DNA from: Methyloceanibacter sp. wino2
GTDB lineage: Bacteria > Pseudomonadota > Alphaproteobacteria > Rhizobiales > Methyloligellaceae
NCBI RefSeq assembly: GCF_003071365.1
Contig: NZ_CP028960.1
Span: 1,426,001-1,490,000 of the forward strand
Direction of reading: 5' to 3'
DNA length: 64,000 nt
The translations under genes were made by a program, and so were the position numbers. Below are positions 18,669 through 36,233 of this stretch, in pieces (the stretch's first letter is position 1; every line of letters begins with the position of its first letter). Below the pieces are notes generated by a model, which worked only from the letters and a program-made list of their open reading frames with translations, was not told the DNA's origin and ran no database searches.

Positions 18669-18808
18669 ACGGCGGTAGCAAAGCCGTCGCCGTCATGAGG
18701 CTGTACGGCATCGGAGAAGTCCCCTCGCCACAGCCCGTCCCCTCACCACCAAGGCACACGGCGTCAGTATGATCGCCAGGACCCCGCCGTCACGCACAGG
18801 AGTGGAGA

Positions 18809-20071: not shown

Positions 20072-20176
20072 CCGTCCTGGCGGTCGGATGCAGAGTGGTT
20101 GTTACTCCTCTGTGTGCCTCGGTACGCCTGTTGGCCAACGTCGCTGTATCGCCCTCTCACCAAGGGAGGGCTCGCG

Positions 20177-21834: not shown

Positions 21835-21876
21835 GGAATCCCGCGAGAGCGGGTGTTGGTTAGAAGGAGAGTAACG

Positions 21877-22167
21877 ATGGAACGGAATTGGAAAGCAAAG
21901 GACGTGGGGCCGGACGAGATTGAGGGCTCATTCGTCACGGTGCGCAGCCCGCAAGGCTCGCTGTGCGCAATCGAGGTCAAGACGGCAGACGGGTACCGCT
22001 ACTACCCGTGCCCGCATGACGAAGCGGTGATGAACGAACTCGCCGCTGAGAAAACGCCGTGGAAGCGGGCGCACGATTGGCGTCCGCATACCCTCGGTGA
22101 AGTCGCCGCACTCATCAAGCCCGCCGAGGTGGTTCACCGCCACGTCGTGGAAGTTCAACGGAGATAG
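21877..22167 (+). CDS. Hypothetical protein
   Basis: 96 residues from the ATG at 21877, with AAGGAGAG about 6 bases ahead. It looks like a small beta-rich fold (GSFVTVRSPQGSLCAIEVKT, then DGYRYYPCP). The function is unknown. It lies 42 bases after the preceding gene and 2 bases before the next. Confidence 0.55.
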   Translation: MERNWKAKDVGPDEIEGSFVTVRSPQGSLCAIEVKTADGYRYYPCPHDEAVMNELAAEKTPWKRAHDWRPHTLGEVAALIKPAEVVHRHVVEVQRR

Positions 22168-22169
22168 CT

Positions 22170-22466
22170 ATGCAGAAACACGACAACTACGAGATCGTTC
22201 TCGACGAACACGGCAACAAGGTCATGCGCGTCCGCATGACGGCGATGGACGGCGACCGTGACGGCCAGCGCATCCTTCACCGTCCCGGCGCTGTCTCGGG
22301 AGATGACATTCCCGAAGGCGTGACCGCCGCCTATGAGCAAAACGAAACTGCCCTTGCCAATGCGTGGAAGCACGGTGACGACGCACCGACCGTCCCGAAG
22401 GTAACGGGCGAACCTTACGAGGACCACCGTCTGTGGCTCTCGAATGCATGGAGGAGTAACGAGTAA
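22170..22466 (+). CDS. Hypothetical protein
   Basis: 98 residues with ACGGAGA ahead of the ATG. The N-terminus YEIVLDEHGNKVMRVRMTAMD is strand-rich and the remainder is acidic. No family recognised. Its TAA shares one base with the ATG of the following coiled-coil gene (TAATG), so the two are coupled. Confidence 0.55.
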   Translation: MQKHDNYEIVLDEHGNKVMRVRMTAMDGDRDGQRILHRPGAVSGDDIPEGVTAAYEQNETALANAWKHGDDAPTVPKVTGEPYEDHRLWLSNAWRSNE

Positions 22467-23341
22467 TGCTGCCCATCGAAGCCAAATCCAAACTGGACGA
22501 CCTCACGCAGGAAGCCGCGGACAGCGACGCGCTGCTACGGTCGATCCCCGGTCGTATCGACAACATTGGTCGCCAGATCATCCAACTGGCGCAACGCCGG
22601 AGCACGTTCGATGAACGTGACAAGCGGTACGAAGAACTGCGCCAGGAGATTGACGCCGCGCAGCGCAAGCAGGAGCATTTGCGTGAAGTCGCGGGACGGC
22701 GCAAGGCGCGTGCCGTCAACGACCTCGACACCCTCAAGGCCATCAATGTGTGGATGGCGCGGTTGCCGCAGGGGACCAAGCTCGTCTCCGTCGAGACGCC
22801 GCTTCCGAACGTCACCGACCTGCAAGCCGCAATCACGTCAACGCGTGATGAGATCGGTACTCTCAAGCAGCGCATCCGAGAGATGAAGGGCACGCACCTG
22901 CCGAAAGATGAACTGCGGGACAAGGCGGCGTACTACGTCAAGCGGTTGGGTGCGGCGGCAAAGCCGGTGCTGGAAGGTACGGCGCGGGACAAGAAGTTCG
23001 GCCTGTCGTTCGACACGCGGGACCCGCTGTCCATCGTCGCCGCCGTTGCGCCGGATACGCTCCTCGAAAGTCTGGAGCGCATGATTGACGAACAGGTGCC
23101 CGACGACGGCTTGCCCGCCGACGAGCGCAAGGCCCAGGTGGCCGAATTGGAAAGGCTGCTCCTTGAGTGTGAACGCTCCGAGGAGGCGCTTGTGATCGAA
23201 GCCCGGTCACGTGGCATGGACGTGCTGCGGCGGCCTCGCGCCGATGCACGCGCCATTCTGGGTGTCGCTGTCTCGGACAAGACGGCAGCGAAGCCGAAGC
23301 CTGTCGCGGTCGAAGAGACGCCGCTGGAGATGGCCGGATGA
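22466..23341 (+). CDS. Coiled-coil protein of unknown function
   Basis: 291 residues. Heptad-like segments cover roughly residues 10-85 (DNIGRQIIQLAQRRSTF, YEELRQEIDAAQRKQEHLRE) and 115-145 (AAITSTRDEIGTLKQRIREM). The C-terminal part has another helical pair (ERKAQVAELERLLLECERSEE). No catalytic motif was seen. In a full prophage the portal or a scaffold would be expected near here; a scaffolding-like or capsid-redirecting role is only speculation from shape and position. Confidence 0.6.
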   Translation: MLPIEAKSKLDDLTQEAADSDALLRSIPGRIDNIGRQIIQLAQRRSTFDERDKRYEELRQEIDAAQRKQEHLREVAGRRKARAVNDLDTLKAINVWMARLPQGTKLVSVETPLPNVTDLQAAITSTRDEIGTLKQRIREMKGTHLPKDELRDKAAYYVKRLGAAAKPVLEGTARDKKFGLSFDTRDPLSIVAAVAPDTLLESLERMIDEQVPDDGLPADERKAQVAELERLLLECERSEEALVIEARSRGMDVLRRPRADARAILGVAVSDKTAAKPKPVAVEETPLEMAG

Positions 23342-23460
23342 AATCGCATTCCTCGACGCCGGAGCTTGAGGAAGGCGCACGGAGCTACCTTTCACTCCTG
23401 TTGCCGACTTCTAGGAAGCGGGGTCGAGTGTCGGTGGCGGGTCGTAAGGTCCCCGCGTGA
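23338..23460 (+). CDS. Possible 40-aa protein, ATGA-coupled
   Basis: The ATG at 23338 overlaps the stop of the coiled-coil gene (ATGA) and the frame stays open for 40 codons. The product is basic (TSRKRGRVSVAGRKVPA at the end). The only support is the overlap, a geometry used several times in this element. Confidence 0.35.
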   Translation: MKSHSSTPELEEGARSYLSLLLPTSRKRGRVSVAGRKVPA

Positions 23461-23467
23461 CCGGGAC

Positions 23468-23503
23468 TGGGGTTCGGCACCTTTGCTCGGGTGTCGAACC
23501 CCA
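23468..23503 (+). other. 14-bp hairpin before the 130-aa gene
   Basis: TGGGGTTCGGCACC (23468-23481) pairs with the segment 23490-23503 over 14 base pairs, with one G-T pair and an 8-base loop. It starts 8 bases after the preceding stop and ends 21 bases before the next ATG. No T-tract follows, so it may be an RNA control element or a weak terminator. Confidence 0.45.
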
Positions 23504-23524
23504 ATTGGTTTGAAGAGGTGACGA

Positions 23525-23917
23525 ATGAGTACGCTGAACGGAACGCTCCCTCTCCTGACCGGCGCGTGCACGAATGCCGTGCCCGTCATCCCGACATTCC
23601 AGCCCGGCGCGTTTCAGTTCGGCGCGTTCCAGATGGAGCAGCCGGGCTACCTAGTCGGCGTGCTACCTCGGCTTGGCGGCGCGTTCGCATCAGTTGGTGC
23701 AGGCCCCGATGTTGAACTTCGTGGCGGCGGATCGGCGTGGTGGCTTCCGCCGCTCCCGAAGCTCGAACCTCGTTGGTGGGAGCCGCAGCCTGTCGACCCC
23801 GTCGTCGGAGAATTCGCTGCGGCGTTGCCGGTTCCCCTCGCAGCGTTTGACGATGACCTGACCGATGACGAAATCGAGGCCGCCATTCTGGCGGCGGTCA
23901 CGTCGATTGCCGCCTAG
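23525..23917 (+). CDS. Hypothetical protein
   Basis: 130 residues from an ATG with GAAGAGGTG ahead. Low in charge and rich in Pro, Gly, Trp and Phe (QPGAFQFGAFQMEQPGYLVG, then PKLEPRWWEPQPVDP), ending in an acidic helix (DDDLTDDEIEAAILAAV). No family recognised. It is the last rightward gene of the terminase cluster. Confidence 0.5.
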   Translation: MSTLNGTLPLLTGACTNAVPVIPTFQPGAFQFGAFQMEQPGYLVGVLPRLGGAFASVGAGPDVELRGGGSAWWLPPLPKLEPRWWEPQPVDPVVGEFAAALPVPLAAFDDDLTDDEIEAAILAAVTSIAA

Positions 23918-24080
23918 CTCCCCCCAATCACGGCTTGGTCAGCGCCCCGTGCAGGGTGATTTGGTTCTCTCCGGCCCTTGGTATGGACACCCCTCGAAAC
24001 CGCCCGGTAGGGGGCCCTCACCCCGTTCTGGCGGCGCCAACTAGGGCGTTCCGCGGAGTCGGATGCGTTCGGCGTGGGGA

Positions 24081-24773
24081 TCAGTCCGCATTTTCGAAGG
24101 TGATAGCGAATGGCAGGTGCAGCGTCTCTTTGTAGGCCTTCGCGAGGCCCTCTACCAGCTTGCGGTATGTTTCCGAGTCCTCAGAAGCTTCGGTGCGAAG
24201 CTGTTCGATCAGCGAGTTGACTTGTATCATTTGGGGCCTGAGCCCCGCATATTCGTCGTGAGGCAATTCAACCCAACCGCTGTCACCCTCCACGCGCACA
24301 GGAGGAACCTTGGCAATCAAGTCAAAGATGAGCCGATTGAGTGTGCTCAGTGACTCCACGAAATGGTAGTGCCGCGGCTCCAGCAGGAGCGTTTCGTTCA
24401 TCAGCTTGGCGTTCTTCAGCTCGAGCAGCGTAGCCTTCTCGTCGGGTGAAAAGTGAAAATGAGTGAGGTTGCTGGAGAACGGTTTGAAGAAACGCCACGG
24501 ATCGTCAACCAAGCCCCTTTGATTTGCCTCCGCGAACTGTTCCTCGAAAGCACGTCGTGACTGGGCGTAGTTGCCGTGCATGTCGCGCACTTTGAAGAGC
24601 AGCGATGTGGCTAATGCTTGCTTTTCGCGGAACCTATCTTCGTCGCGCTGCTTGCGCTGAGCCCTCAACGCGAGCGCTTGAGCAAAGAGTGCCATGAGGC
24701 CGCCCACGACAGCGCCTACGATCGCGGCCCAAAACTCCGTCGATACAGCGATCTGACACAATGGTTTAAACAA
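24081..24773 (-). CDS. Membrane-anchored helical protein of unknown function (cargo)
   Basis: 230 residues. One N-terminal transmembrane helix (about 13-33, FWAAIVGAVVGGLMALFAQAL) is followed by a charged helix (RAQRKQRDEDRFREKQALA) and a long helical cytoplasmic part. Base composition is visibly lower in GC than the surrounding genes. It lies 12 bases downstream of the 380-aa gene in the same direction, forming a separate leftward unit between the terminase cluster and the integrase, a place where satellites usually carry cargo. The function is unknown. Confidence 0.65.
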   Translation of the reverse strand: MFKPLCQIAVSTEFWAAIVGAVVGGLMALFAQALALRAQRKQRDEDRFREKQALATSLLFKVRDMHGNYAQSRRAFEEQFAEANQRGLVDDPWRFFKPFSSNLTHFHFSPDEKATLLELKNAKLMNETLLLEPRHYHFVESLSTLNRLIFDLIAKVPPVRVEGDSGWVELPHDEYAGLRPQMIQVNSLIEQLRTEASEDSETYRKLVEGLAKAYKETLHLPFAITFENAD

Positions 24774-24785
24774 GCCGCGCCTCCC

Positions 24786-25928
24786 CTATCCCGTGACTGC
24801 TTCTCGAAACGCCATGAACGGTTCACGCGATGGGACGCGATAATTCGAGGGGAAACGGAGCAAGATGTCATCGTCGCGGTCCGGCGCAGCTATGAACGTC
24901 CCTTGCTCAGTTCGGTAACGCGTGCCGTCTTTCGAGATGCTGTTCGCCCACTGTGCTAGCCACGATAGGTTGTGTGGTGCGAACGCTGCCGACAGCGCAT
25001 CGAGACGGTCAATCTCACCGATGACACCGTCCACGATTTCGGTAAGGCCCTTTAGCCTGTTCCGGAGCATCTCTAGGTACTCGTGGTCGTCACCCAACTG
25101 TCGGAGCCCTGAGATAGCCCGCTTCTCGTACTCGCTGACGCGCAAGCCAATTGGTTCGGTGCCTCCACCAAAGAAGTCCTGGCCTTCGAGCATGCCCAAC
25201 TGGGTTTGTATGGTCGTGTAGATGGGATTGAGTTGCTTCTTCGGCTCGTCCTTTTGGCCACCCATGGCTTGGAGATACCGCTTGGCGGCTTGGGTACGGA
25301 TAGGAGGGCCTTCTTCGTTGGCCTTCTCCGCGCGGCGCTGTTCAGCCATGAGATCGCGAACGCGTTCATCGCGGAACAACATGCCGTCGCGTTCGTAAAT
25401 CAGGTCATCGATATCCGACGCCAATCCGGGAAGGCGTCTGCGAAAATCACTCTTTAGGTTCTGGTACAGGCCAATGGCGGGCGCCTGCCTTAGCTCCGCA
25501 AGTGACGCCAGGAAATTGGGGCCAGCATCGCGGGCCGCATTGCGCCGCCTCAAATAGTAAGCCGTGTCCTTGGCGAGATCGAAGTCCTTGATGAGCAGGT
25601 CGAAGTTTACGCCCCATATCTTCCTCGCGCAGTCGCGACCTACCAGGATGCGCCTACCATCGCGGTACCTCATGACGATACCGCGTTGATGGTTGTCGTA
25701 CCGGTCGTGGACGCAGCGAACTTTTTTGTCGGTGCCGCGAAGGTCGTAGAGCATCTCCACAATGGGGATTTCTTCGGTCTCGGGACGCTCTTCCACCAAG
25801 CCGGCTAACTCTGTCGGGTTGTTGGTGGTGAACTCCGTGGCCAGCAGATCTTGTTCGGTGAGTCGTGTCCAATAGCGCTCAACCGCTTGCACTGGTAGCG
25901 CTACCTCCTCTTGGGGGTCATCGCACAT
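24786..25928 (-). CDS. Hypothetical protein with a possible Cys/His metal site (cargo)
   Basis: 380 residues. Near the N-terminus, RCVHDRYDNHQRGIV and ILVGRDCARKIWG place Cys72, His74, His80 and Cys100 where they could bind a metal ion. The rest is helical, with coiled-coil-like parts (MLRNRLKGLTEIVDGVIGEI) and a C-terminal strand region. I recognise no named family. Lower GC than its surroundings suggests a separate origin. It is probably cotranscribed with the 230-aa membrane protein downstream. Confidence 0.65.
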   Translation of the reverse strand: MCDDPQEEVALPVQAVERYWTRLTEQDLLATEFTTNNPTELAGLVEERPETEEIPIVEMLYDLRGTDKKVRCVHDRYDNHQRGIVMRYRDGRRILVGRDCARKIWGVNFDLLIKDFDLAKDTAYYLRRRNAARDAGPNFLASLAELRQAPAIGLYQNLKSDFRRRLPGLASDIDDLIYERDGMLFRDERVRDLMAEQRRAEKANEEGPPIRTQAAKRYLQAMGGQKDEPKKQLNPIYTTIQTQLGMLEGQDFFGGGTEPIGLRVSEYEKRAISGLRQLGDDHEYLEMLRNRLKGLTEIVDGVIGEIDRLDALSAAFAPHNLSWLAQWANSISKDGTRYRTEQGTFIAAPDRDDDILLRFPSNYRVPSREPFMAFREAVTG

Positions 25929-26008
25929 TCTGTGCCTCGCATGTAAGGATGTTCACTCTACGTTCTACATGCTGGTTGTGCTCAAAGCAAGAGGAAGTGG
26001 CCCTGTTA

Positions 26009-26140
26009 TCAACGAGAAAGTTCGGCGAAGAGCTGCCAGAGGATGGCCCCTCCGAACGCCATACAACCAATTAGAATTGCGACGGCTACTAGGCGCAGGT
26101 CGCGATGGAATGGCGGGTCTGGTCTGTCTTCGTTGCTCAT
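26009..26140 (-). CDS. Possible 43-aa single-pass membrane protein
   Basis: An ATG at 26140 opens 43 codons ending at the TGA (26009-26011). The product has a charged start (MSNEDRPDPPFHRD), one good transmembrane helix (LVAVAILIGCMAFGGAILW) and a short tail. No clear ribosome-binding site was found. It lies 80 bases upstream of the 380-aa gene on the same strand and could be the first gene of that unit. Confidence 0.4.
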   Translation of the reverse strand: MSNEDRPDPPFHRDLRLVAVAILIGCMAFGGAILWQLFAELSR

Positions 26141-26251
26141 GACGCCAAATTAGCACGGCGGGAGAAATCAGCGCATAGGTGAACAGGAGAGCGGTGCCGT
26201 CCTCAATTGTCGGCGCGCAGGTCTGCTTAGTTTGAGGAGGAGCTTTTGACG

Positions 26252-26779
26252 ATGCCAACACCACCAAAGGGCACGAAGCGGTACAAGGAGTGGCGGCGGC
26301 GCTATGAGCCCGAGGTGGCCAAGCTGATCATCGTGGCGGAGTCGCCGCCGATCTCCGGGCTGTATCTATACAATCCCGATGGAAGCGTGAGTGAGCCACT
26401 GTTCGCCGCGTTGATGAAGGCGCTCGGACTTTCGCCGACCACGAAGGCGTCCGGGCTGCGCGCATTGCAGCAACGAGGCTGGGTGCTGGTCGACAGCACA
26501 TACGAACCCGTGAATGAACTATCCGGCACGGCGCGCAACGCTGTCATTCGCCGGGACTACCCGCTGCTTCGTGACGACCTCGCGGGACTAACACAGGGTC
26601 GGGCGGTGCCCCTCGTGCTCATCAAGGCCAATGTGTGTCGGCTTCTGGAGTCGAGCCTCGTCGCGGATGGCTTCCACGTGCTCAACGGTGGTCGAAAGAT
26701 CTACTTTCCTGCGAACGGGTGGCAGGGCGATTTTCAACGCCAGTTCGCTGACGTCTTGAGGTCGGCAGAGACCGAATAG
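26252..26779 (+). CDS. Hypothetical protein, weak resemblance to uracil-DNA-glycosylase-like proteins
   Basis: 175 residues from the ATG at 26252 (a TTG at 26246 is nearer to the GAGGAGG at 26234-26240). The motif LIIVAESPPISGLYLYN near the N-terminus resembles the first active-site loop of UDG-superfamily-like proteins of unknown role. The rest includes VLIKANVCRLLESSLVADGF. The assignment to that superfamily is tentative. It stands alone, facing the convergent integrase gene. Confidence 0.6.
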   Translation: MPTPPKGTKRYKEWRRRYEPEVAKLIIVAESPPISGLYLYNPDGSVSEPLFAALMKALGLSPTTKASGLRALQQRGWVLVDSTYEPVNELSGTARNAVIRRDYPLLRDDLAGLTQGRAVPLVLIKANVCRLLESSLVADGFHVLNGGRKIYFPANGWQGDFQRQFADVLRSAETE

Positions 26780-26833
26780 AACGGCACGCAAGCTGAGGCG
26801 GTGCCAATCGAGGTGCCGCCTTTCGTGTCTCCG

Positions 26834-28054
26834 CTATCGGAGCAGCGCCGCGCCCTTCGCCGTCACGATGCTGGCGACATGATCGGCCCACTTTTCGAGG
26901 AGCGCCCGTTTGCGGTCCAGCGCATAGCCATGTGAGTAGCCCGCCGTCACGCCGGACCGCGCATGATTGAGCACAAGTCCCCTGTCGAAATCGTCATGCC
27001 CCTCGTTCTCGAACCACGTGGCGACGGTGTGGCGAACGGCGTGGTAGTTGAAGTCGGCCGGGGCACCCGCCTTCGTCAGTTTGCGCTGGAGCTTCGTGCC
27101 CGGGTAGTGGAAGGCAAAGTCCTCGGGGAGCCCCTTGATGATGCGTTGGGCCAGCGGCGCTAGAGGCGTCAGATACACCCGCCTCCGTTTCGCCGTCTTC
27201 TTGGACTTCGTCCGCTCGTGCGGTGTCGTCCACACGCCGTCCTTGATCTCCGATAGCGACATGCCCGCCAGTTCGCTCTTCCGCGCCGCCGTCAACAGTA
27301 GGAGCTTGATGTATGCGCCGGAGAGCAGGTCGATGTTATCCGCCGCGGTCCAGATCGCTTTCAGTTCATCGGGTGTGTAGACGCGTTCGCGTTCGCGGCC
27401 TTCGAACACGACTTCCAGATCGTTCATAATCGGCGCGTCGGCATACTTGCGGATCGGCTTCGATGCCCAGCCCCACAGCGACCTTAGCTGAACGCGGGTT
27501 ATGTTCGCCTTGTAGATGTGGCCCGCTGCCATGAATGTGTTGAGTAGCCGCTGAGCCTCTAGTGCCGTGATGCTCGAGAACGGTCGCTTGAGAAATTCGG
27601 CGCACGTCGTTTTGAGGACGCGCTGCGTCTGCTTCCAGGTGCGCTGTCGCAGCTGGGCGTACTCTTTGATGAAGAGGTCCACGACCTGCTCGTAGCTCAT
27701 GTCGGCGGCCTTTGCCTTCCGCTCCTCCTCCTCCGCCTTCCGCTCTTCCTCAATTGGATCTTTGCCGAGGCCGGCCACGCCCCGTAGCTGCTTGGTCTTG
27801 TCCCGCGCATCGCCTAGCGGCAGTTCACCGACGCGGCCAATTCGTTTCGAGACGGCCTTGCCGTCGAGGTAGTAGGTCGCGAAGAATGATCTGGTGCCCG
27901 ATGGCGACACGAGCACCGATAGGCCCAGCACGCCGCCCTCACTCCTCGAGTCGTCCCAAACGCGGTACTGCTTCGCCTTCGGTTTAAGTCGCCGGAGCGC
28001 CAAATCGGTGAACGCTTTTCGAAGTGGTGCGCGCTTCTTGGGTTTCTCCCCCAT
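26834..28054 (-). CDS. int: Tyrosine site-specific integrase
   Basis: 406 residues. The N-terminal DUF4102-type arm-binding domain (about 12-110) includes WDDSRSEGGVLGLSVLVSPSG. A charged linker (EEERKAEEEERKAKA) and a core-binding helix domain follow. In the catalytic domain R258 (TAARKSE), H338-x-x-R341 (HAVRH), H364 and the nucleophile Y373 (AGYSHG) are all present. It catalyses recombination between attP and the tRNA-Ala attB. It reads inward from the right end, with two tandem ATGCAATGC copies just upstream of its start. Confidence 0.95.
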   Translation of the reverse strand: MGEKPKKRAPLRKAFTDLALRRLKPKAKQYRVWDDSRSEGGVLGLSVLVSPSGTRSFFATYYLDGKAVSKRIGRVGELPLGDARDKTKQLRGVAGLGKDPIEEERKAEEEERKAKAADMSYEQVVDLFIKEYAQLRQRTWKQTQRVLKTTCAEFLKRPFSSITALEAQRLLNTFMAAGHIYKANITRVQLRSLWGWASKPIRKYADAPIMNDLEVVFEGRERERVYTPDELKAIWTAADNIDLLSGAYIKLLLLTAARKSELAGMSLSEIKDGVWTTPHERTKSKKTAKRRRVYLTPLAPLAQRIIKGLPEDFAFHYPGTKLQRKLTKAGAPADFNYHAVRHTVATWFENEGHDDFDRGLVLNHARSGVTAGYSHGYALDRKRALLEKWADHVASIVTAKGAALLR

Positions 28055-28069
28055 GCCATCCCCCTCAGT

Positions 28070-28091
28070 TTATGCAATGCTTATGCAATGC
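28070..28091 (+). promoter_or_regulatory. Right arm-type repeats, TTATGCAATGC x2 in tandem
   Basis: Two perfect, directly adjacent 11-bp copies of TTATGCAATGC (28070-28080 and 28081-28091), plus a related CTGCAATGC at 28108-28116. They match the left-end pair and lie 16 bases upstream of the integrase start, so integrase binding here could also repress its own promoter. Confidence 0.6.
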
Positions 28092-28154
28092 AGGGACCGA
28101 TTATAGGCTGCAATGCCCTCCCATCAAATTACAACTGCTCACACAAAAAGATAG

Positions 28155-28167
28155 GGTTATCATAACC
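28155..28167. promoter_or_regulatory. Palindrome GGTTATcATAACC inside the right end
   Basis: A perfect 6+1+6 inverted repeat in the AT-rich stretch between the integrase and attR, 40 bases from attR. It could be a binding site for a recombination directionality factor or a repressor. Confidence 0.35.
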
Positions 28168-28206
28168 TTACATTCGTGAAAGCGTTGCAGAGGAAGGGGT
28201 AGGTGT

Positions 28207-28256
28207 GTGAATGGCATTCACGAGGTCGTCGGTTCGATCCCGTCTGGCTCCACCAA
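28207..28256 (+). repeat. attR, right 50-bp attachment repeat
   Basis: Identical to 16550-16599, the 3' part of tRNA-Ala(GGC) from the anticodon stem through CCA plus one base. There is no 5' half here, so this is not a second tRNA gene. Confidence 0.93.
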
Positions 28257-28485
28257 TTCCCACAACGTCGATTGCCGGTTCTAGTTTGCTCGAGTCACTG
28301 ATGCCTTAAGTGACCGCCGACACGCCTGCGCCGCGAGGCTTGGACGTGCGGTCGAAACAGGCTACCCAACGCTTCCATGACCGAATGGGCACACAAGGTC
28401 CGCAGCAGTGGCAGCAAGCGTTTTGATCCGCTCGCAGCCCCTGACACGCTTCTCCGTAGCGCCGCCGCTCACTCGGAAGAAAGAC

Positions 28486-28797
28486 TTAGCAGTTCTGATC
28501 GATGAGTTGCTGAGACAGCGACTTGATCGTGGCGTCCTCGGCAAGCGCCAGCGACTTTTTGGCATCGGCACAGTTCTGGGCCGCGTCGGTGTTGTTCGCC
28601 GCCCGAAGGCCGTAGAACATGCCGGTCACCGAATTCTCGACCGCCGCGTTGTCGATCAAACGCGTACAGGCCGAGACGACAGCGCCGCTGTCGTTGCTCT
28701 GCGTGCAGGTGGCGAAATCCGCCTCGAGCCCGTCATAGGCGACCGCCTGCACGGATGCGAGAAGCACTACGGCAGGCACAATTCTGAACACGACCAT
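28486..28797 (-). CDS. Small exported protein of unknown function
   Basis: 103 residues with an N-terminal signal peptide (VPAVVLLASVQAVA, likely cut before YDGLEA). The mature part has four Cys, which could form disulfides, and a CTRLIDN...YGLRAANN segment reminiscent of one TPR/SEL1-like helical repeat. No family assigned. It is the last leftward gene before the element and may be the end of the metallohydrolase-SoxYZ-TetR-DUF4242 unit, 91 bases after the DUF4242 gene. Confidence 0.6.
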   Translation of the reverse strand: MVVFRIVPAVVLLASVQAVAYDGLEADFATCTQSNDSGAVVSACTRLIDNAAVENSVTGMFYGLRAANNTDAAQNCADAKKSLALAEDATIKSLSQQLIDQNC

Positions 28798-28888
28798 CGC
28801 TGTCTCCAGTTCCCCTCAAGGACAGATGCGCTGGATCGTAGCCGCCTTTTGCGACGCAATCGATACTCACGAACGCGGTGATCGACTG

Positions 28889-29170
28889 CTAGGCCGCCGT
28901 GGTCGGGTCAATGACCGTCACGATTTCCGTGATGTTGCTCGCAGGGAATCCGCTCAGCTCCGCGTGCTTCTCGATGGCAGCCCTGTCGGTTGCCAGGTAG
29001 ATGCAGAATGTCTTGTCCCCGGCGACGTAGCTTTGGACCCACTGGATATCCTTGGCCCCAATTTGGCAGAGGGCTCCGTTCGACACCTCCGCGGCGCCCG
29101 AAAGTTCCTGCGGGCCCAACTCGCCCACATCAGGAATTTCCCGTTCAATAACAAATCTCTTTAGACTCAC
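28889..29170 (-). CDS. DUF4242 domain protein
   Basis: 93 residues. The hallmark segments RFVIEREIPDVGELGPQEL, IQWVQSYVAGDKTFCIYLA and ITEIVTVIDPTTA match the DUF4242 ferredoxin-like family; an actinobacterial member binds nickel. The cellular role is unknown. It lies 33 bases after the TetR gene, probably in the same transcript. Confidence 0.8.
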   Translation of the reverse strand: MSLKRFVIEREIPDVGELGPQELSGAAEVSNGALCQIGAKDIQWVQSYVAGDKTFCIYLATDRAAIEKHAELSGFPASNITEIVTVIDPTTAA

Positions 29171-29203
29171 TGTCGCGTTCCCTGCTGCGTTTCCAAAATC
29201 AAT

Positions 29204-29782
29204 TCATTGCGTGCCGGTCTCGGAAAGGCTGGCAACGGCCTGTCCGAATGTCGGTTTGATGCGCGCGCTGTCCTTTAGCGCCCATGCGACGAGGCTGGCG
29301 CCTTCGAGAACACTCAAGAGCATGGTCGCCGTCTGGCGCACGTCGAGATCGGCGCGGAACTCACCGTCGGCAATCCCATCCCGGACGACGCCGGAGAGCC
29401 AGTCGAGGTGAAGCTCGAAAAAGGTCGACACCTGTGCGCGCATCGACTGCGGCAGGGCGGCGGTCTCGGCCGACAGCGCCGCGCAGAGCGGCATCAATCC
29501 GTCCCGGAGGCTGTCGATGAAGAACCCGCTATAGACAGCAAGACGGGCCTCGGCCGACCTCTCCTCCTCGAGGACCTTCGCAAGCGCCCTCTTGAACTCG
29601 GCGAGATAGCCGTCGATCAGGGCGACGCCCAGAACCTCTTTCGTCGGGAAGTGGTGATGGACGCTCGCCTTGCGAATACCGACCCGTTCGGCCAAATCCG
29701 CGTAACTGAACGCCGCATAGCCGCGGGTTCGGGTGAGCGTCTCCGCCTCCTTCAACAGGAGATCTCGTGTTCCGATCGACAT
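29204..29782 (-). CDS. TetR family transcriptional regulator
   Basis: 192 residues from the ATG at 29782; the longer frame to 29980 overlaps the upstream gene and looks spurious. N-terminal helix-turn-helix: YADLAERVGIRKASVHHHFPTK, the TetR signature. The C-terminal ligand domain has FFELHLDWLSGVV and SVLEGASLVAWAL. It lies 34 bases downstream of the SoxYZ gene. A perfect palindrome in the promoter of this gene group (31699-31716) is its most likely operator, which would make the unit self-repressing; this is inference. Confidence 0.9.
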   Translation of the reverse strand: MSIGTRDLLLKEAETLTRTRGYAAFSYADLAERVGIRKASVHHHFPTKEVLGVALIDGYLAEFKRALAKVLEEERSAEARLAVYSGFFIDSLRDGLMPLCAALSAETAALPQSMRAQVSTFFELHLDWLSGVVRDGIADGEFRADLDVRQTATMLLSVLEGASLVAWALKDSARIKPTFGQAVASLSETGTQ

Positions 29783-29816
29783 TTGCCGCACCTCGACAGC
29801 GTTACCCGTTCTCGGC

Positions 29817-30644
29817 CTAGGACCCGCCCTGGGGCTTGCTCGTCCCGTTGAACTTCTCGCCGTCCGTATCCACCACCGACACGTCGAGCTCGTTGTGGTC
29901 GCCCTTCGCGAAGGTGAAGCGGAAATTCGGATTGGTCGAAACGGAGAACGTGCTGTCCAGCTTGAACACCAGCTCACCATCCCGCTCGACGGTCACCTCT
30001 TTGACGTAGCGGGCGGGAATGAACTTGGCAGTGTTGATGTCGAGCTGCATGCCGTTGTGGTTCGGATGCTTGATCATGACCTGCCCCTGCCAGATCGGAT
30101 TGCTGCTGAGAGCTGGGGGGAAGGTCCGAACGATCGTCTTGCCCATTCCGGCCGTGTCCGCATCCGGGTCCTTGGCCTGCATGGCGGCGCATCCTCCGGC
30201 GGCGGACAAAAACTTCGTCGCCATGTGGAGGCTGCCGTCTTCAAGCTCGAGCACGGCCCGGGCATGGGAGAAATTGTCAACACGGACACGCGTGGCGAAG
30301 CTGCGCTCGCCGCCGGAACCGGCCGCCGGACCGAACGTGAGAGTCGCGACCTTCGGATCCGGGTTCTTGTCGATGAAGATCGACAGAGATTTGACCTTGT
30401 CTTTCACGTGAGGCGGGATCCGCACCGTGATCGGCACGATGGCGGCATCCTCAATCTTCTGAGGCGTTTCGAGAACGACTGCACCGTCCTCCTCCGTGAT
30501 CGGACGGTCGCCAAAGGCCTGCTCGCGCAGGATCGGCCACACGTCTTCCTCGGCATGCGCCGGCACCGTCGCGAGAGCGCCGATACTGGCTGCGAGCACG
30601 GCGCCGCAGAGCGTCCGGCTGAGCGTGTTGAAAGCGTATGTCAT
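29817..30644 (-). CDS. Quinoprotein dehydrogenase-associated SoxYZ-like carrier protein
   Basis: 275 residues. A signal peptide (1-31, cut after AHA) is followed by a SoxY-like domain ending in the carrier Cys152 (SAAGGCAAMQ), and then by a SoxZ-like domain (VMIKHPNHNGMQLD, VEVTVERDGEL-type strands) in one chain. In this family the Sox carrier fusion occurs beside PQQ-dependent alcohol dehydrogenases, with a metallohydrolase partner that is indeed the upstream gene. Its exact chemistry is not established. It is periplasmic. Confidence 0.85.
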   Translation of the reverse strand: MTYAFNTLSRTLCGAVLAASIGALATVPAHAEEDVWPILREQAFGDRPITEEDGAVVLETPQKIEDAAIVPITVRIPPHVKDKVKSLSIFIDKNPDPKVATLTFGPAAGSGGERSFATRVRVDNFSHARAVLELEDGSLHMATKFLSAAGGCAAMQAKDPDADTAGMGKTIVRTFPPALSSNPIWQGQVMIKHPNHNGMQLDINTAKFIPARYVKEVTVERDGELVFKLDSTFSVSTNPNFRFTFAKGDHNELDVSVVDTDGEKFNGTSKPQGGS

Positions 30645-30678
30645 GGCCTTGGAGTTCCTCTTCTCACGTCGTTCTCAG

Positions 30679-31686
30679 CTATTCCCATTCGAGTTCAGCA
30701 TAGGCGGCAGTGACGTTGCGCACATGATACTGGTCAAACAGCTTCCAGGCATCCTTTTCAGTGAAGCCGGCCGACTTCGTCGCCTGCTCCAACGTCTTGC
30801 CCTCGGCGATTTGGCGCCGCACGTCGTCCGCAATGGTGGATAGGTATTCCTGCTCCGGAACCAACGCTTGCGGCAGTTCCATCGTCTTCGGCCCATGGCC
30901 GGGAACCACGCGGGCCGCCTTTCGCTTCCCCATCTCGTCGAGCACCGCGAGCCAACCCTTGATCGACCCGTCGATGGTCGGGACGTGGACGGAAAACAGC
31001 AGATCGCCCAGGAAGAGCGTATTGGTCTTCAGGTCCGTCACGATCATATCGTTGTCGGTGTGGGCCGTGGGCTGCGGCTCCAGCAGCAATTCCCGGTCGC
31101 CGAGGTCCAGCTTCGTCGGCTCCTTGATGCCAAGCGTCGGCAGGATGATTTCGCTGCCGGCGAAGCCGTCGGCGCCGATCATCTGTTCGTTCGCGATGAG
31201 ATAGCTGTCTTTGCGGGTGCCCAGCGCCCGCGCGAGCTTGTAGTGACCGACGAATTCGGGATTGTCCTGCTTAAAGGCGGCATTCCCGAAGACATGGTCG
31301 GGATGCATATGCGTGTTGATCACGTATTTGATGGGCTTGTCGGTGACGGACCGAATGGCGTCGCGCAGGTCGGCGCCGAGCTTCGCGCTCCCTGACGTAT
31401 CGATGACGGCGACGGCTTCGGATCCGACCACGAAACTCGCATTGGCGATGTCCCCGCCATTGGCGGCGGACTGAACTTCGTAGCGTCCCTGATGCACGAA
31501 GACGCCGGGCGCAACCTCGCTCACATCGCTGGTGGACGCATGCGCGGAGCTGTAGCGCAGGAGCGGGGTGGAGGCCATCGCCAGGCCTGCCAGGATCACA
31601 TTCCGGCGCGAGAGCACATGGACCCCGCAGCCGCAGCTGTGTGGAACCCTGCTCCCTGTGGGATGACTGTGAGGGCCGTTCGACAT
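30679..31686 (-). CDS. Quinoprotein relay system zinc metallohydrolase (MBL fold)
   Basis: 335 residues. A Tat-type signal (LSRRNVILAGLAMA) is near residues 25-38 and the MBL zinc motif THMHPDH near 125-131, followed by downstream His and Asp ligands (PTAHTDND, LFLGDLLF, VVPGHGP). It belongs with the SoxYZ-like carrier 34 bases downstream. The predicted -10 is so close that transcripts would begin near the ATG at 31686; a GTG at 31617 with GGGG ahead would give a normal short Tat signal and is a real alternative start. Confidence 0.85.
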   Translation of the reverse strand: MSNGPHSHPTGSRVPHSCGCGVHVLSRRNVILAGLAMASTPLLRYSSAHASTSDVSEVAPGVFVHQGRYEVQSAANGGDIANASFVVGSEAVAVIDTSGSAKLGADLRDAIRSVTDKPIKYVINTHMHPDHVFGNAAFKQDNPEFVGHYKLARALGTRKDSYLIANEQMIGADGFAGSEIILPTLGIKEPTKLDLGDRELLLEPQPTAHTDNDMIVTDLKTNTLFLGDLLFSVHVPTIDGSIKGWLAVLDEMGKRKAARVVPGHGPKTMELPQALVPEQEYLSTIADDVRRQIAEGKTLEQATKSAGFTEKDAWKLFDQYHVRNVTAAYAELEWE

Positions 31687-31695
31687 CTGATCAGC

Positions 31696-31725
31696 ATTCT
31701 ACCTATCACTAGGTAGGTGCGTCAA
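31696..31725 (-). promoter_or_regulatory. Promoter with embedded palindromic operator for the metallohydrolase-SoxYZ-tetR unit
   Basis: On the minus strand, TTGACG (31720-31725) and TAGAAT (31696-31701) are 18 bases apart. The perfect inverted repeat CTACCTA-TCAC-TAGGTAG (31699-31716) fills most of the spacer and overlaps the -10. This is the usual position for a TetR-type repressor site. Confidence 0.65.
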
Positions 31726-31808
31726 GTTGTCATGCATCGGGGCGACCTCGGTCACGAAAAAGTTGCCGCTCCCAGCCCTCGGGGCGCCGCGCAGATCGGT
31801 GGGTACAA

Positions 31809-31836
31809 CTTGATTTCGGCCGCCGAACACCCATAT
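31809..31836 (+). promoter_or_regulatory. RpoH (sigma-32)-like promoter of hsp20
   Basis: CTTGAT (31809-31814) and CCCATAT (31830-31836) are separated by 15 bases, close to the sigma-32 consensus CTTGAA-N13-15-CCCATNT. It leaves a leader of about 65 bases before the Hsp20 ATG. Confidence 0.55.
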
Positions 31837-31908
31837 CGAGATTGATTTTTTGGAGATTTCCGGCACGCCCGATGGCGGCGGAAGAAGAGGCTCCTTGCCG
31901 GATACTGG

Positions 31909-32322
31909 ATGACACGTCTCGACGGCAGTCTATGGATCAGCGTCGGCGCCGCTCACAATGGCCCCGCAACGAAGCTGGCCGAAGGCGGCTATCCGCCCTA
32001 CAACGTTGAAATCCTGCCTGCGGAGGCTCAGCGTCCCGAGCGATTGCGGATTACCCTGGCCGTGGCCGGGTTCTCCCGGGAAGAGCTGGACGTGACCGTC
32101 GCAGACGGAGCGCTGCATATCCGCGGTGAAAAACCGGAAGAAGGCAGCAGGGACTATTTGCACCGCGGCCTCGCCAGCCGCCGCTTCAAGAGAACGTTTG
32201 CGCTTGTCAACGGCGTCGAAGTGCGTAAAGCGGAGTTGGACAACGGGCTCCTGGCCATCGAGCTCGAACGGCTTCCGCAGGAGACGCGCGCCTTCAAGGT
32301 CGGGATCAAGTCCGCTGGCTGA
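31909..32322 (+). CDS. Small heat-shock protein, Hsp20 family
   Basis: 137 residues with the alpha-crystallin domain: YNVEILPAEA, ITLAVAGFSREELDVTV, LHIRGEK and FKRTFALVNGVEVRKAELDNGLL. It is an ATP-independent holdase against protein aggregation. The N-terminal arm is short. A sigma-32-like promoter precedes it and the DUF1150 gene follows, the conserved alphaproteobacterial pair. Confidence 0.9.
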   Translation: MTRLDGSLWISVGAAHNGPATKLAEGGYPPYNVEILPAEAQRPERLRITLAVAGFSREELDVTVADGALHIRGEKPEEGSRDYLHRGLASRRFKRTFALVNGVEVRKAELDNGLLAIELERLPQETRAFKVGIKSAG

Positions 32323-32342
32323 GATGTTTGGAAACGAGTTTG

Positions 32343-32609
32343 ATGAATAAGCACGAAGACGACGAATTTGACACGGCGATGAGCCCCAAGGAGCTTGCTC
32401 TGCTTGGGGAAGGCGAAGTCGCGTATATCAAGCAGGTCGATTTCGACGATGCGGAGCGGCTCTTTCCGGCCCTCGACGATACGCCGGAAGGGATCGATCT
32501 GTTCGCCGTGCTGGGCGCCGACGGCACGCCGATCGCGTTGACCGACAGCCGCAACGCCGCCATCGCCAACGCGATCGAGAACGACCTCGTTCCCTTGAGC
32601 GTCCACTAA
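32343..32609 (+). CDS. DUF1150 family protein
   Basis: 88 residues from the ATG at 32343. LALLGEGEVAYIKQVD, LFAVLGADGTPIALTDSRNAA and the final ENDLVPLSVH are the family signature. The function is unknown; the gene commonly follows hsp20 in alphaproteobacteria, as here 20 bases downstream, suggesting a role in heat stress. Confidence 0.85.
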   Translation: MNKHEDDEFDTAMSPKELALLGEGEVAYIKQVDFDDAERLFPALDDTPEGIDLFAVLGADGTPIALTDSRNAAIANAIENDLVPLSVH

Positions 32610-32683
32610 TCACTAATTCCGAAAACGTACTCGCAGCGCTTGCTGGAAGCGCGCGAAGCGCCGCCCTTCGAAGGCGAAGACGG

Positions 32684-33151
32684 CTACGCGGCGTGTGAGG
32701 CCGTGTCGTCCTGCGTGAGCACGGCGTAGAGCGCCTCGGCGTCGGCACTGGACTTCAGCTTCTTCACCGACGGACGATCTCGCAACAGGCGCGAGATGCG
32801 CGCCAGGGCCTTCAGATGGTCCGCGCCGGCGCCCTCCGGCGCCAAGAGCAGCACAACAATCGTCACCGGCTCTGCGTCGGCCGCATCGAAGTCGATCGGC
32901 TCCGCCAGCCGCGCGAACACCCCGACGATCCTGTTCAGGCCCGGCATTTTGCCATGGGGGATTGCGACGCCCTGACCAAGCCCCGTGGATCCGAGCCGCT
33001 CCCGCTGCAACAGGACGTCGAAAATATCCCGTTCTTGGAGGTCACAGATCTCCGAAGCGTGCGCGGAAAGCGCCGCCAAGAGCTGCTTCTTGTCCACCGC
33101 ATTGAGCGAAGGCAGTACGGCTTCGGGCGCAATGAAATCAGCTAGGGTCAT
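32684..33151 (-). CDS. ptsN: PTS IIA-like nitrogen regulatory protein PtsN
   Basis: 155 residues from the ATG at 33151; the longer frame to 33250 adds an unlikely Cys-rich leader. It is a EIIA-Ntr/mannitol-type domain with the phospho-acceptor His in GVAIPHGKMPGL. It also has ERDIFDVLLQRERLGSTGLG and the LLLAPEGAGADHLKALARIS helix. It receives phosphate from the PTS-Ntr chain and tunes nitrogen and potassium metabolism. It follows rpoN in the same direction, but without the usual hpf gene between. Confidence 0.92.
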   Translation of the reverse strand: MTLADFIAPEAVLPSLNAVDKKQLLAALSAHASEICDLQERDIFDVLLQRERLGSTGLGQGVAIPHGKMPGLNRIVGVFARLAEPIDFDAADAEPVTIVVLLLAPEGAGADHLKALARISRLLRDRPSVKKLKSSADAEALYAVLTQDDTASHAA

Positions 33152-33570
33152 TTCGAATACCTGTGTGCCTCCCATCCGGCACGGTCCACATGGACCAACA
33201 AACACTTTCCGTTCCGCGTGTGTTCCAACCAGCATGCGCGGGCCGGTCATTTCTGCCTCGCACGCGTAGCCCGGGGCCCGAGACCACCGGAAACGCTATA
33301 GAACGCAAATCAGGACGAAAACGCGGAACGCTTTTGACGAGTTCTAGAAGTCTATCTGGTATTTGGCTGCGCTGTTTTTCCCGTAGGCGACCCGCTCACG
33401 TTTTGCGGCGGCGCACCATCCGGCACTAAGTCCACAAGAAACGAGGCCAGCATCGGGATCTGTACGTCCCGGCCCAAACAACATTGACCTCTGTAGCGGA
33501 GGCCGGAAGCTAGCTCTGTGCTTGGAGGGTGTCAAATCCAAACCTCCACAAATGTCGAAAAGCCCGGCAG
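33152..33570. other. Gap between rpoN and ptsN, no gene seen
   Basis: 419 bases without a credible reading frame. In most alphaproteobacteria and gammaproteobacteria hpf (ribosome hibernation factor) sits here; no translation in either direction resembles it. On the minus strand a TTGACA (33530-33535) followed after 17 bases by TAGCTT could be a weak promoter for ptsN. Confidence 0.5.
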
Positions 33571-35112
33571 CTAAGCGCTTACCGTCAGCGCCATGCGCTT
33601 TTGCCGGCGCCGCTGGACCGAGGACGGGATACCCAACGCCTCGCGATATTTTGCGACGGTCCGGCGCGCGATATCGATGCCATCCACCTTGAGGCGCTCG
33701 ACAATCTTGTCGTCGGATAGGACGTCTTCCGCAGGCTCCCCGTCGATCATTTCACGAATCCGGTGCCGCACGGCTTCCGAGGAGTGGAAATCGCCCTCAC
33801 CCGTGGCGGCAATCGCGGATGTGAAGAAGTATTTCAACTCAAACAGACCGCGATTCGTCGCCATGTATTTGTTGGCCGTCACGCGGCTCACGGTCGATTC
33901 GTGCATCGAAATCGCATCGGCGACGGTCTTGAGATTGAGCGGCCGCAAATGCCGGACGCCGTAGGTGAAGAACGCGTCCTGCTGGCGCACGATTTCCTGC
34001 GACACTTTCAGGATCGTGCGCGCGCGCTGATCGAGACTCTTCACCAGCCAGTTCGCCGTCTGCAGACAATCGACAAGGTAGCTCTTGTCGTCCTTCGCGA
34101 GCGGCGACTTGCTGACCCTCGCATAATAGGTCTGGTTGACGAGAACGCGGGGCAGCGTGTCCGAATTGAGCTCCACGTGATAACTGCCGTCCGGCAACGT
34201 CCGCAGCAGCACGTCCGGCACGATGGGTTGCGCCGGCGCCGCGCCGAACTCCAAGCCGGGCTTCGGATTGAGCCTCTTCAGCTCGGCGATCATGTCGAGC
34301 AGATCCTCGTCGCTCACGCTCGTGGCGCGTTTCAAGGCGACGAGATCGTGGGCCGCAAGGAGGTGCAGGTTGTCGACCAGCGCGGCCATGGCGGGATCGC
34401 AGCGATCACGCTCTTTCAGCTGGATCGTCAGACACTCGCGCAGATCGCGCGCGAAGACACCGCACGGATCGAAGTTCTGCATCTGCCGCAACGTGTCTTC
34501 GACCAAGTCGATTGGCGCCCCAAGCTGGCTGGCGAGCAGATCCAACTCGCCGCGCAGATAGCCGGATTCATCCGTCAGATCGATGATGTGCTGGCCGATC
34601 ATGCGTTGCGCGGGATCGGCGAAGGCCAGCGCAAGCTGCTCCGATAGATGGAGCCGCAACGTCTTTTCCTCGGCCACATAGGCTTCGAGGTCGGCGCCGT
34701 CCTCGGATACGCCGGGGCCGGACTGCGTCAGCCCGCTCCAGCCGCTGTCCATCACGGCGCCCGGTACAAAATCTTCCGAGTCGGGAAACATGTCGCGAGG
34801 ATCGGCGTCGAGATCCTCCGTACGGTTGTTGTCGCCGCCGGATTCGAGATCGACCCAATTGTCGGAGTCGCGCGCATCCGCCGCGCTGTCGTTCTTCTCA
34901 TCCGACCCTTCAGGGGCATTATCATCCGTTGTCGGACTAGCCGGACCGTCCCCGTCGCTGCGCTCAAGCAATGGATTGCGCTCAAGCTCCCCCTCCACAA
35001 ACGCGCTCAGCTCCATGTTCGACAGCTGCAGGAGTTTGATGGCCTGCTGCAACTGAGGCGTCATGACCAGACTCTGGGTCTGGCGCATTTCGAGCTTTGC
35101 GTTGATCGCCAT
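33571..35112 (-). CDS. rpoN: RNA polymerase sigma-54 factor
   Basis: 513 residues. Gln-rich region I (QTQSLVMTPQLQQAIKLLQL) binds activators, an acidic region II follows, and then come the core-binding and helix-turn-helix parts. The RpoN box ARRTVAKYREALGI lies near the C-terminus. It directs transcription of nitrogen and other sigma-54 promoters that need AAA+ activators. It follows lptB after 26 bases, the standard order. Confidence 0.97.
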   Translation of the reverse strand: MAINAKLEMRQTQSLVMTPQLQQAIKLLQLSNMELSAFVEGELERNPLLERSDGDGPASPTTDDNAPEGSDEKNDSAADARDSDNWVDLESGGDNNRTEDLDADPRDMFPDSEDFVPGAVMDSGWSGLTQSGPGVSEDGADLEAYVAEEKTLRLHLSEQLALAFADPAQRMIGQHIIDLTDESGYLRGELDLLASQLGAPIDLVEDTLRQMQNFDPCGVFARDLRECLTIQLKERDRCDPAMAALVDNLHLLAAHDLVALKRATSVSDEDLLDMIAELKRLNPKPGLEFGAAPAQPIVPDVLLRTLPDGSYHVELNSDTLPRVLVNQTYYARVSKSPLAKDDKSYLVDCLQTANWLVKSLDQRARTILKVSQEIVRQQDAFFTYGVRHLRPLNLKTVADAISMHESTVSRVTANKYMATNRGLFELKYFFTSAIAATGEGDFHSSEAVRHRIREMIDGEPAEDVLSDDKIVERLKVDGIDIARRTVAKYREALGIPSSVQRRRQKRMALTVSA

Positions 35113-35138
35113 CTACGAAGTCACTCGCGATCACATAG

Positions 35139-36233
35139 TCAGATTTTGAAATCGTCGCCCAGATAGACGCGTCTGACGTCCTCATTGTTGACGATCTCGT
35201 GGGTGGTTCCGTGGGTCAAAACAGTCCCGTCATGAATAATATAGGCCCGGCCCACGAGGTCGAGCGTCTCGCGAACATTGTGATCGGTGATCAGGACGCC
35301 GATGCCGCGCTGGGTGAGGTGCCGTACGAGCGCACGAATGTCGTTGACCGCGATCGGATCGATGCCTGCGAAAGGCTCGTCGAGCAGCATGTAGGACGGA
35401 CGCGTGGCAAGGGCACGCGCGATCTCGACACGGCGGCGCTCACCACCAGACAAGCGCATGGACGGCGAGGTTCTAAGCCGCGTGATCCGGAATTCCTCGA
35501 GCAAGGCATCCAGCTGCTCCCGGCGGGCCTTTTTGTTCGGCTCCACCGTTTCCAAGACCGCCAGGATATTCTCCTCGACCGTCAGACCGCGAAAGATGGA
35601 TGCTTCCTGCGGCAAATAACCGATTCCGAGCCGGGCGCGGCGGTACATCGGCAGGCGCGTAACATCCTGCCCATCGATCTTGATCGAGCCCTCGTCCGCG
35701 GGAATGAGCCCGGTAATCATGTAGAACGTCGTCGTCTTACCCGCACCGTTGGGGCCGAGCAGCCCCACGGCTTCGCCGCGCTGGACATCGAGGCTGACAC
35801 CGCGGACGACCGTACGCTTCTTGAAACTTTTGACGATCGACCGGATGGTCAGCCAGCCCTCGCCTGGCTCATGCAGTCCTTGCGCACCTGCCTGGGCCTG
35901 TTCCGCATGCGGCGGCAGTGGCGGCGGCGCAGCCTGTGCTGGCGGAACCCTATGAGGCTGCGGTGCCGGCTGCGCGACTGGCTGCCGCTGGGGCACTGGC
36001 TGCCCCTGAGGCGCCGGCATGGCCGGGCGCTGCGCTTGGCTTGGATAAGCAGGCTGGACTTGATGGATGCGTTGGTCGGGTTGCGTCGGGGCGCTCGGGC
36101 GCCCCTGGTCGTGACGTGGCACGTGCGCAGGCTGCGCCCCAGCGGACGCACCTTGCGGAGCGGAAACCGCTCCTTGTCCCGGTATCGAGACCACCTTGCC
36201 CACCGCTCGTGTCACCCTTCGGTTGAAACGCAC
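35139..36233 (-). CDS. lptB: LPS export ABC transporter ATP-binding protein LptB, with a Pro/Gln-rich N-terminal extension
   Basis: 364 residues. The last 240 are a normal LptB: Walker A GPNGAGKTT, signature LSGGERRR, Walker B LLDEPFAGIDP and the H-loop ITDHNVRETLD. It powers LPS transport from the inner membrane through LptC and LptA. The first 120 residues or so are low complexity, rich in Pro, Gln and Ala, and unlike other LptB proteins. Either they are a real extension or the start lies nearer GEGWLTIRSIVKSF; no good internal start with a ribosome-binding site was identified. Confidence 0.93.
   Translation of the reverse strand: MRFNRRVTRAVGKVVSIPGQGAVSAPQGASAGAQPAHVPRHDQGRPSAPTQPDQRIHQVQPAYPSQAQRPAMPAPQGQPVPQRQPVAQPAPQPHRVPPAQAAPPPLPPHAEQAQAGAQGLHEPGEGWLTIRSIVKSFKKRTVVRGVSLDVQRGEAVGLLGPNGAGKTTTFYMITGLIPADEGSIKIDGQDVTRLPMYRRARLGIGYLPQEASIFRGLTVEENILAVLETVEPNKKARREQLDALLEEFRITRLRTSPSMRLSGGERRRVEIARALATRPSYMLLDEPFAGIDPIAVNDIRALVRHLTQRGIGVLITDHNVRETLDLVGRAYIIHDGTVLTHGTTHEIVNNEDVRRVYLGDDFKI

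Follow-up and report, generated by a model that had tools for sequence, protein, structure and literature searches.

A palindrome overlapping the promoter of a SoxH/SoxYZ-like operon is a putative operator of the operon's own AltR-related TetR regulator

Does the TetR-family regulator encoded by a small operon of Methyloceanibacter sp. wino2 act on a palindrome in the promoter of that same operon and, if so, what kind of signal would release it? A first-pass annotation of the window (the whole stretch of DNA analyzed here, 64,000 nucleotides of a 3.21-Mb genome) had proposed that the TetR represses its own operon through the palindrome until a ligand, perhaps an alcohol or aldehyde, releases it. 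The features on which the question turns are listed below.

31725-31720, minus strand: –35 hexamer TTGACG; TTGAC(A/G) is kept in 8/8 related loci
31716-31699: candidate operator palindrome, 18 bp, CTACCTA-N4-TAGGTAG, with 7-bp arms; CTACCTAGTGATAGGTAG on the minus strand
31701-31696, minus strand: –10 hexamer TAGAAT; TAGGAT in 5/8 loci
31684..31686, minus strand: metallohydrolase start codon (ATG), downstream of the –10 hexamer by 9 nt and of the palindrome by 12 nt
31686-30679, minus strand: SoxH-like metallo-β-lactamase-fold (MBL) hydrolase; TIGR04559, 397.9 bits, cut-off 280
30644-29817, minus strand: fused SoxYZ-like carrier; TIGR04557, 222.9 bits, cut-off 140
29782-29204, minus strand: AltR-like TetR (P0001), 192 aa; PF00440, PF16925
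29170-28889, minus strand: ORF for a SCO4226-like small protein, GTG start, 33 bases 3' of tetR; PF14026

The operon, its promoter, and the palindrome

The order of metallohydrolase, SoxYZ-like, and TetR genes, with two 34-base gaps, had been read correctly in the first-pass annotation, from which the co-directional SCO4226-like ORF, a probable fourth gene of the operon, was absent. The description of the operon as quinoprotein-accessory is fair as a family label, with TIGR04557 and TIGR04559 both over cut-off, but no quinoprotein gene adjoins the operon, and the five TIGR03075 matches in the genome each lie at least 105 kb from it. The MBL hydrolase carries an HxHxDH motif, and its N-terminus (SRRNVILAGLA) resembles a twin-arginine signal by eye; the SoxYZ-like carrier has a GGC arm cysteine, Cys152. 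Judged by eye from their N-termini, both proteins look as though they carry export signals. The TetR scored over none of the listed NCBIfam cut-offs. SCO4226-like homologues were also found 3' of tetR in Methyloligella and M. marginalis, and none was found in ten other Methyloceanibacter-type operon loci (L035-L039 and L114-L118, some of them duplicates).

Downstream of the operon, the window contains a gene for a phage-type integrase (26834-28054; Arm-DNA-bind_3 and Phage_integrase), and no tRNA was found near it at 18000-36000. A small ORF at 28486-28797 (103 aa) had no Pfam or NCBIfam match; L114, L115, L118, and L035, all congener loci, keep it at 78-95%, at a distance of ~100-160 bp from the end of tetR.

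The predicted promoter is a good sigma-70-type match. Both the TTGACG-18-TAGAAT arrangement on the minus strand and the perfect 18-bp palindrome reported earlier are present, with a spacer of 18 nt. The palindrome had been placed inside this spacer; separated from TTGACG by the bases CAC, it fills 15 nt of the spacer, but its terminal TAG also forms the start of the –10 hexamer. An inverted repeat of this type is unremarkable on its own and ordinary for 64 kb: the window has 11 with perfect 7-bp arms and a 4-nt loop, and 20 dinucleotide shuffles gave 2-13 (mean 7.75). We rejected the repeat by itself as evidence. Of promoters that match 10 or more of 12 positions and have such a repeat within them, the window contains one and 40 shuffles contained none. 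An attenuator hairpin was considered and rejected, because the palindrome is located upstream of the expected transcription start.

We compared this region in eight loci, consisting of the window and L114, L115, L036, L117, L118, L035, and L038, with L117 and L038 nearly identical here. The palindrome arms were identical at 14/14 positions in all eight, and TTGAC(A/G) and TAG(A/G)AT were likewise kept throughout, whereas the flanks diverged both upstream of the –35 hexamer and between the –10 hexamer and the ATG. Comparison thus shows the palindrome to be under selection and to cover the predicted promoter. The ATG followed the palindrome by 10-12 nt and the –10 hexamer by 7-9 nt in 8/8 loci. 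From this ATG to the SRR/TRR motif, the frame was open and free of stops in all seven loci compared, with a length of 26 codons in one and 25 in the others; differences in this N-terminal extension numbered 121, 120, and 173 at codon positions 1, 2, and 3, a modestly codon-like pattern. Because only 7-9 nt separate the –10 hexamer from the ATG, few or no leader bases are predicted, and the mRNA may be leaderless or nearly leaderless. When MBL starts with and without the operator were compared by eye, neither set had a clear Shine-Dalgarno site.

Linkage of the palindrome to TetR homologues

In a first sample of 61 genomes (our own and 60 relatives), the perfect palindrome occurred in 11, at one copy each, compared to 0/61 for a reversed control, and all 11 sites were within 2.2 kb of a homologue of the TetR on the same contig. 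Twenty of the 61 genomes contained a TetR homologue at E 1e-19 or better; the perfect palindrome was present in 11 of these 20 versus none of the 41 others. Among the nine homologue-bearing genomes lacking a perfect palindrome, six (G008, G017, G023, G049, G052, and G053) had a 12-13/14 site in the 1.5-kb flanks around the homologue, and no such site was found in these flanks in G024, G028, and G035. Seven of the genomes with the site are congeners and not independent; G018, G025, G026, and G047 represent other genera. In a second, order-level sample, the perfect palindrome was found in 9/199 genomes and the control in one. Four of these genomes were new, with the site no more than 2 kb from a homologue in G150, G069, and G138 and not so in G061. 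Across both samples, 15 genomes have a perfect site, and in 14 of them a TetR homologue lies no more than 2.2 kb away.

Among 79 homologue loci, which include several from one genome, a site matching at 12/14 or more positions was present within 300 bp before tetR in 26 (mean 0.235, largest 11, for 200 permuted arms) and anywhere in the locus in 59 (mean 1.91, largest 38, for 100 permuted arms); 53 loci had no such site in the 300 bp before tetR and 20 had none anywhere. The site–TetR co-occurrence, the conserved block with divergent flanks, and the presence of similar sites before tetR in other genera support assignment of the palindrome as a putative operator through which the TetR would regulate its own operon, a reading that is well supported by comparison. 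Of the circuit proposed in the first-pass annotation, the part that makes the palindrome an operator of the operon's own TetR is supported by site–TetR linkage, promoter overlap, and the conserved block, but the part that concerns the ligand is not.

The genome search for further copies that had been suggested as a way to reveal a regulon returned a single perfect site, with arms fixed and centre free, in the 3.21-Mb genome and no sign of a wider regulon. At three or fewer mismatches, the palindrome matched nine places compared to 65 for its reversed-pattern control, and we count these imperfect places as no evidence because they are fewer than those of the control. Patterns searched in this genome at up to 2-3 mismatches gave no indication of additional targets (9 versus 65 and 8 versus 45 for reversed controls).

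G061 carries the palindrome 67 bp ahead of a gene for an MBL-fold protein (L232 6785-7919; TIGR04559, 94 bits versus a cut-off of 280), and no TetR homologue was found near it; one of the distant TetR homologues of this genome may act in trans on the palindrome as its operator. In eight congeners (G001, G002, G006, G009, G011, G013, G015, and G016), genes over cut-off for TIGR04559 and TIGR04557 lie side by side; the perfect palindrome was not found in these genomes, five of which are only 77-85% complete, and none of them gave a TetR homologue at an E value below 1e-4.

The order of genes behind the operator also varies. Three Hyphomicrobium loci (L045, L046, and L047, whose sites match a degenerate pattern at 12-13/14 positions) and G150 (L231, perfect site) have the order site-tetR-MBL-SoxYZ. 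In L231 (4822-7800), the operon reads site-tetR-MBL-SoxYZ-AhpD-like, which joins an alt-type gene to the quinoprotein-associated pair; among the loci examined, only here was an AhpD-like gene seen together with MBL-SoxYZ. In L044, a fourth locus from Hyphomicrobium, an AhpD-like (CMD) gene is present and nothing matched MBL or SoxYZ. Methyloligella (L040 and L042) and M. marginalis (L041) have the order site-tetR-SCO4226-like, and the M. marginalis arrangement occupies the same hsp20/rpoN position as the window operon, pointing to an insertion of MBL-SoxYZ between the operator and tetR in the lineage of the window. Genes directly behind the sites in homologue loci include those for OsmC, CMD/AhpD-like, SDR, DsbA, thioredoxin, and GST family members.

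Our genome has a second SoxYZ-like gene (C1:431815; L192 7708-8544), which is 63% identical to the first and has no MBL partner in an 18-kb stretch. Its place resembles that of MBL-SoxYZ in the TetR-less congeners L194 and L195, and the gene before it has an N-terminus like that of the gene before MBL-SoxYZ in those two loci. The SoxYZ-like gene of M. methanicus (L035 5141-5946) matched as two overlapping pieces in different frames with one stop inside and is a possible pseudogene or assembly error.

Could the palindrome exist for some other reason? The number of such repeats in the window (11 compared to the shuffle mean of 7.75) is what one would expect if it were a chance inverted repeat without function, but arms that are invariant in 8/8 loci between divergent flanks, and a reversed control found in 0/61 genomes versus 11/61 for the palindrome, leave this account with almost no credibility. 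The palindrome might instead belong to the divergent hsp20 gene (31909, plus strand) or to a different regulator, its nearness to tetR being incidental. Its position in the MBL-hsp20 intergenic region would fit such a role, as would G061, where it occurs without a nearby TetR homologue. However, the Hyphomicrobium, Lysobacter, and Pseudomonas loci, many of which have a similar site, contain no hsp20 match, 14/15 genomes with a perfect site have a TetR homologue no more than 2.2 kb away, and the ATG stands 10-12 nt from the palindrome in 8/8 MBL loci. We regard a role for another regulator or hsp20 as very unlikely.

The regulator and its predicted signal

The TetR has a single cysteine, Cys100. 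Of 103 aligned rows, among them ten distant TetRs and some duplicate loci, 99 have cysteine at this position; all members of a selected set of 24 homologues retain it, and it aligns with Cys106 of NemR. The Citrobacter row has Cys-Cys here, as in Cys100-Cys101 of P. ananatis. Equivalence to the P. ananatis Cys100 was drawn from the residue number, the Pseudomonas rows, the Citrobacter row, and the published account (PMC13178969), with the Pantoea sequence itself outside the alignment. In a quick tree with long branches, the TetR fell in an 82-row family with alt-type TetRs (SH-aLRT 92); in the same tree, where these supports are moderate, it belonged to a separate 15-row subclade (SH-aLRT 80), mostly from Hyphomicrobiales genera, outside a 56-row alt-type clade (91). 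Because it lies outside the main alt-type clade, its ligand may differ from that of AltR.

The predicted structure of the TetR had a mean pLDDT of 93, and a fold search with this model placed 2g7s and 3on4 nearest; NemR (4yze), at rank 7, was the highest-ranked entry to bear the name of a characterized regulator. Many relatives of the TetR adjoin OsmC, SDR, DsbA, Trx, AhpD-like (CMD), or OYE genes, and similar neighbors were found on a Citrobacter plasmid and a Paraburkholderia plasmid. The plasmid search, from which these two records were inspected, matched 1,616 records, all at less than 60% identity. We rejected filing the protein as AltR itself, as neither the altR box nor the alt-cluster context was found at this locus. 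By its sequence, it is an AltR-related TetR, a known kind of regulator, and as far as such evidence reaches, it would work like AltR.

In the mechanism that we propose, a TetR dimer on the palindrome would cover the –35/–10 spacer and the edge of the –10 hexamer, keeping RNA polymerase off. The MBL-SoxYZ-tetR(-SCO4226-like) operon would be repressed, and the TetR would limit its own level. Modification of Cys100 by a thiol-reactive sulfur compound, similar to the thiosulfinates that act on AltR, would alter the dimer so that it leaves the DNA. Once induced, the SoxYZ-like carrier and the SoxH-like hydrolase would handle reactive sulfur, perhaps protecting PQQ enzymes. We estimate a probability of about 0.62 for this explanation as a whole, comprising autoregulation via the palindrome, Cys100-mediated release by thiol-reactive sulfur, and sulfur handling by the carrier and hydrolase. 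Comparison supports operator identity, TetR linkage, promoter overlap, and the conserved Cys100; we infer binding, repression, the chemical signal, export, the enzyme roles, and the leaderless or nearly leaderless mRNA.

Autoregulation via the palindrome would also be compatible with a different signal, in which the ligand that binds non-covalently is an alcohol or aldehyde, as the first-pass annotation had envisaged, or some other metabolite. The operon encodes quinoprotein-associated families, the genome has five genes of the PQQ alcohol dehydrogenase type, and NemR is reported to answer electrophiles including aldehydes, all of which would suit such a ligand. It is less easily reconciled with a lone cysteine that is retained in 99/103 rows and aligned with Cys106 of NemR, with the thiol-redox genes that adjoin many relatives, or with the lack of a quinoprotein gene next to the operon, and we consider it improbable. 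The closest characterized regulators that we found are AltR, which responds to thiosulfinates through Cys100 (PMC13178969), and, further off, NemR; the alcohol or aldehyde ligand is unsupported, and release through Cys100 by a thiol-reactive sulfur compound is the reading that we prefer.

An AltR-like regulator favors a sulfur or disulfide role for the SoxYZ/SoxH pair, without deciding between them. A more specific proposal, which we advance tentatively and expect may well prove wrong, is that the pair is inducible and exported, traps and hydrolyzes reactive organosulfur compounds such as methyl thiosulfinate from methylated-sulfur metabolism, and so shields PQQ dehydrogenases, with the AltR-like Cys100 repressor as a dedicated sensor in methylotrophs. 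If this were true, the 'allicin' sensor family would be a family of general reactive-organosulfur sensors and not specific to plant defense.

Comparison with AltR, NemR, AcuR, and the P. putida pair

AltR of P. ananatis is described as repressing its own promoter through an inverted repeat. Allicin and dimethyl thiosulfinate release it, whereas NEM, diamide, H2O2, and two disulfides have no such effect, and the response requires Cys100 (PMC13178969). Clusters of the alt type are linked to allicin/thiosulfinate tolerance (PMC13178969; PMC7119367; PMC12306174). Our TetR resembles AltR in its fold, in a Cys100 of the same number, in an inverted repeat over the promoter, and in autoregulation, here predicted, and the genes that neighbor its relatives are like those described for PfAR-1 islands (PMC7119367; PMC12306174). 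It differs in belonging to a separate subclade, in having an MBL-SoxYZ operon, and in containing one cysteine compared to three in P. ananatis AltR. DsbA, AhpD-like, and OsmC genes adjoin altR, whereas the neighbors here are MBL, SoxYZ-like, and SCO4226-like genes. The published altR box is CAATCTAC-N6-GTAGATTG, unlike CTACCTA-N4-TAGGTAG; only the arms of a second Pantoea repeat, IR2 (TTACCAAC/GTTGGTAA), resemble our site, and the printed spacing of IR2 is N6 compared to N2 for our site when taken with 8-bp arms.

NemR of E. coli is likewise a TetR with a redox-active cysteine, Cys106, which aligns with Cys100, and is more distant from our TetR than AltR is. TAGACC-N4-GGTCTA, which we take to be the NemR operator, was seen upstream of nemR in L219. 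In that system, nemA and gloA follow nemR, but neither these genes nor TAGACC..GGTCTA is present at our locus.

The leaderless transcript and overlapping operator predicted here have a precedent in AcuR of Rhodobacter sphaeroides, whose operon is reported to be leaderless, with an operator that overlaps the promoter (PMC3017554). The two systems are alike as TetR operons with an operator, here a putative one, over the promoter, and ours may also have a leaderless transcript. They differ in that the AcuR operator, as given there, is TAATAGAC-N6-GTCTATTA and the ligand acrylate (PMC3017554), and our TetR scored 48 bits against the AcuR profile NF051457, which has a cut-off of 247.

Searches of the open-licence literature found no 14-mer match to the family palindrome as a printed operator and, judged by title or abstract start, no paper treating the SoxYZ/SoxH-like pair together with a TetR. 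Among the matches listed, none for CTACCTA with a TetR operator was on a relative and none for Methyloceanibacter, TetR, SoxYZ, and metallo-beta-lactamase was relevant, both by title or abstract start, and none for TetR, quinone, and operator was useful; no paper linking thiosulfinates with SoxYZ was found. One paper among the matches concerns sulfane-sulfur repressors of the ArsR type in Hyphomicrobium denitrificans (PMC12423496).

The SoxYZ/SoxH pair itself is known from P. putida, where PP_2677/PP_2678 encode a fused SoxYZ-like/SoxH-like pair (PMC12997753); both families are over cut-off in the window operon. According to this 2026 ped paper, the pair has no established role, and its disruption in P. 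putida had minimal effects under rare-earth-deficient conditions. The hypotheses offered there are that it forms disulfides or stabilizes the cofactor in PQQ dehydrogenases, or that it shields PQQ against sulfur species. Here the pair has an AltR-like repressor in its operon; the word TetR is absent from the main text of PMC12997753. What is new, then, is not the regulator, which is of a known kind, but its predicted target, the function-unknown SoxH/SoxYZ pair found in quinoprotein systems. A repressor from a thiosulfinate-sensing family hints at a condition under which this pair might be studied, the shared operator pattern offers a means to find such circuits, and an AltR-like circuit would extend from the alt clusters of plant-associated bacteria into methylotrophs.
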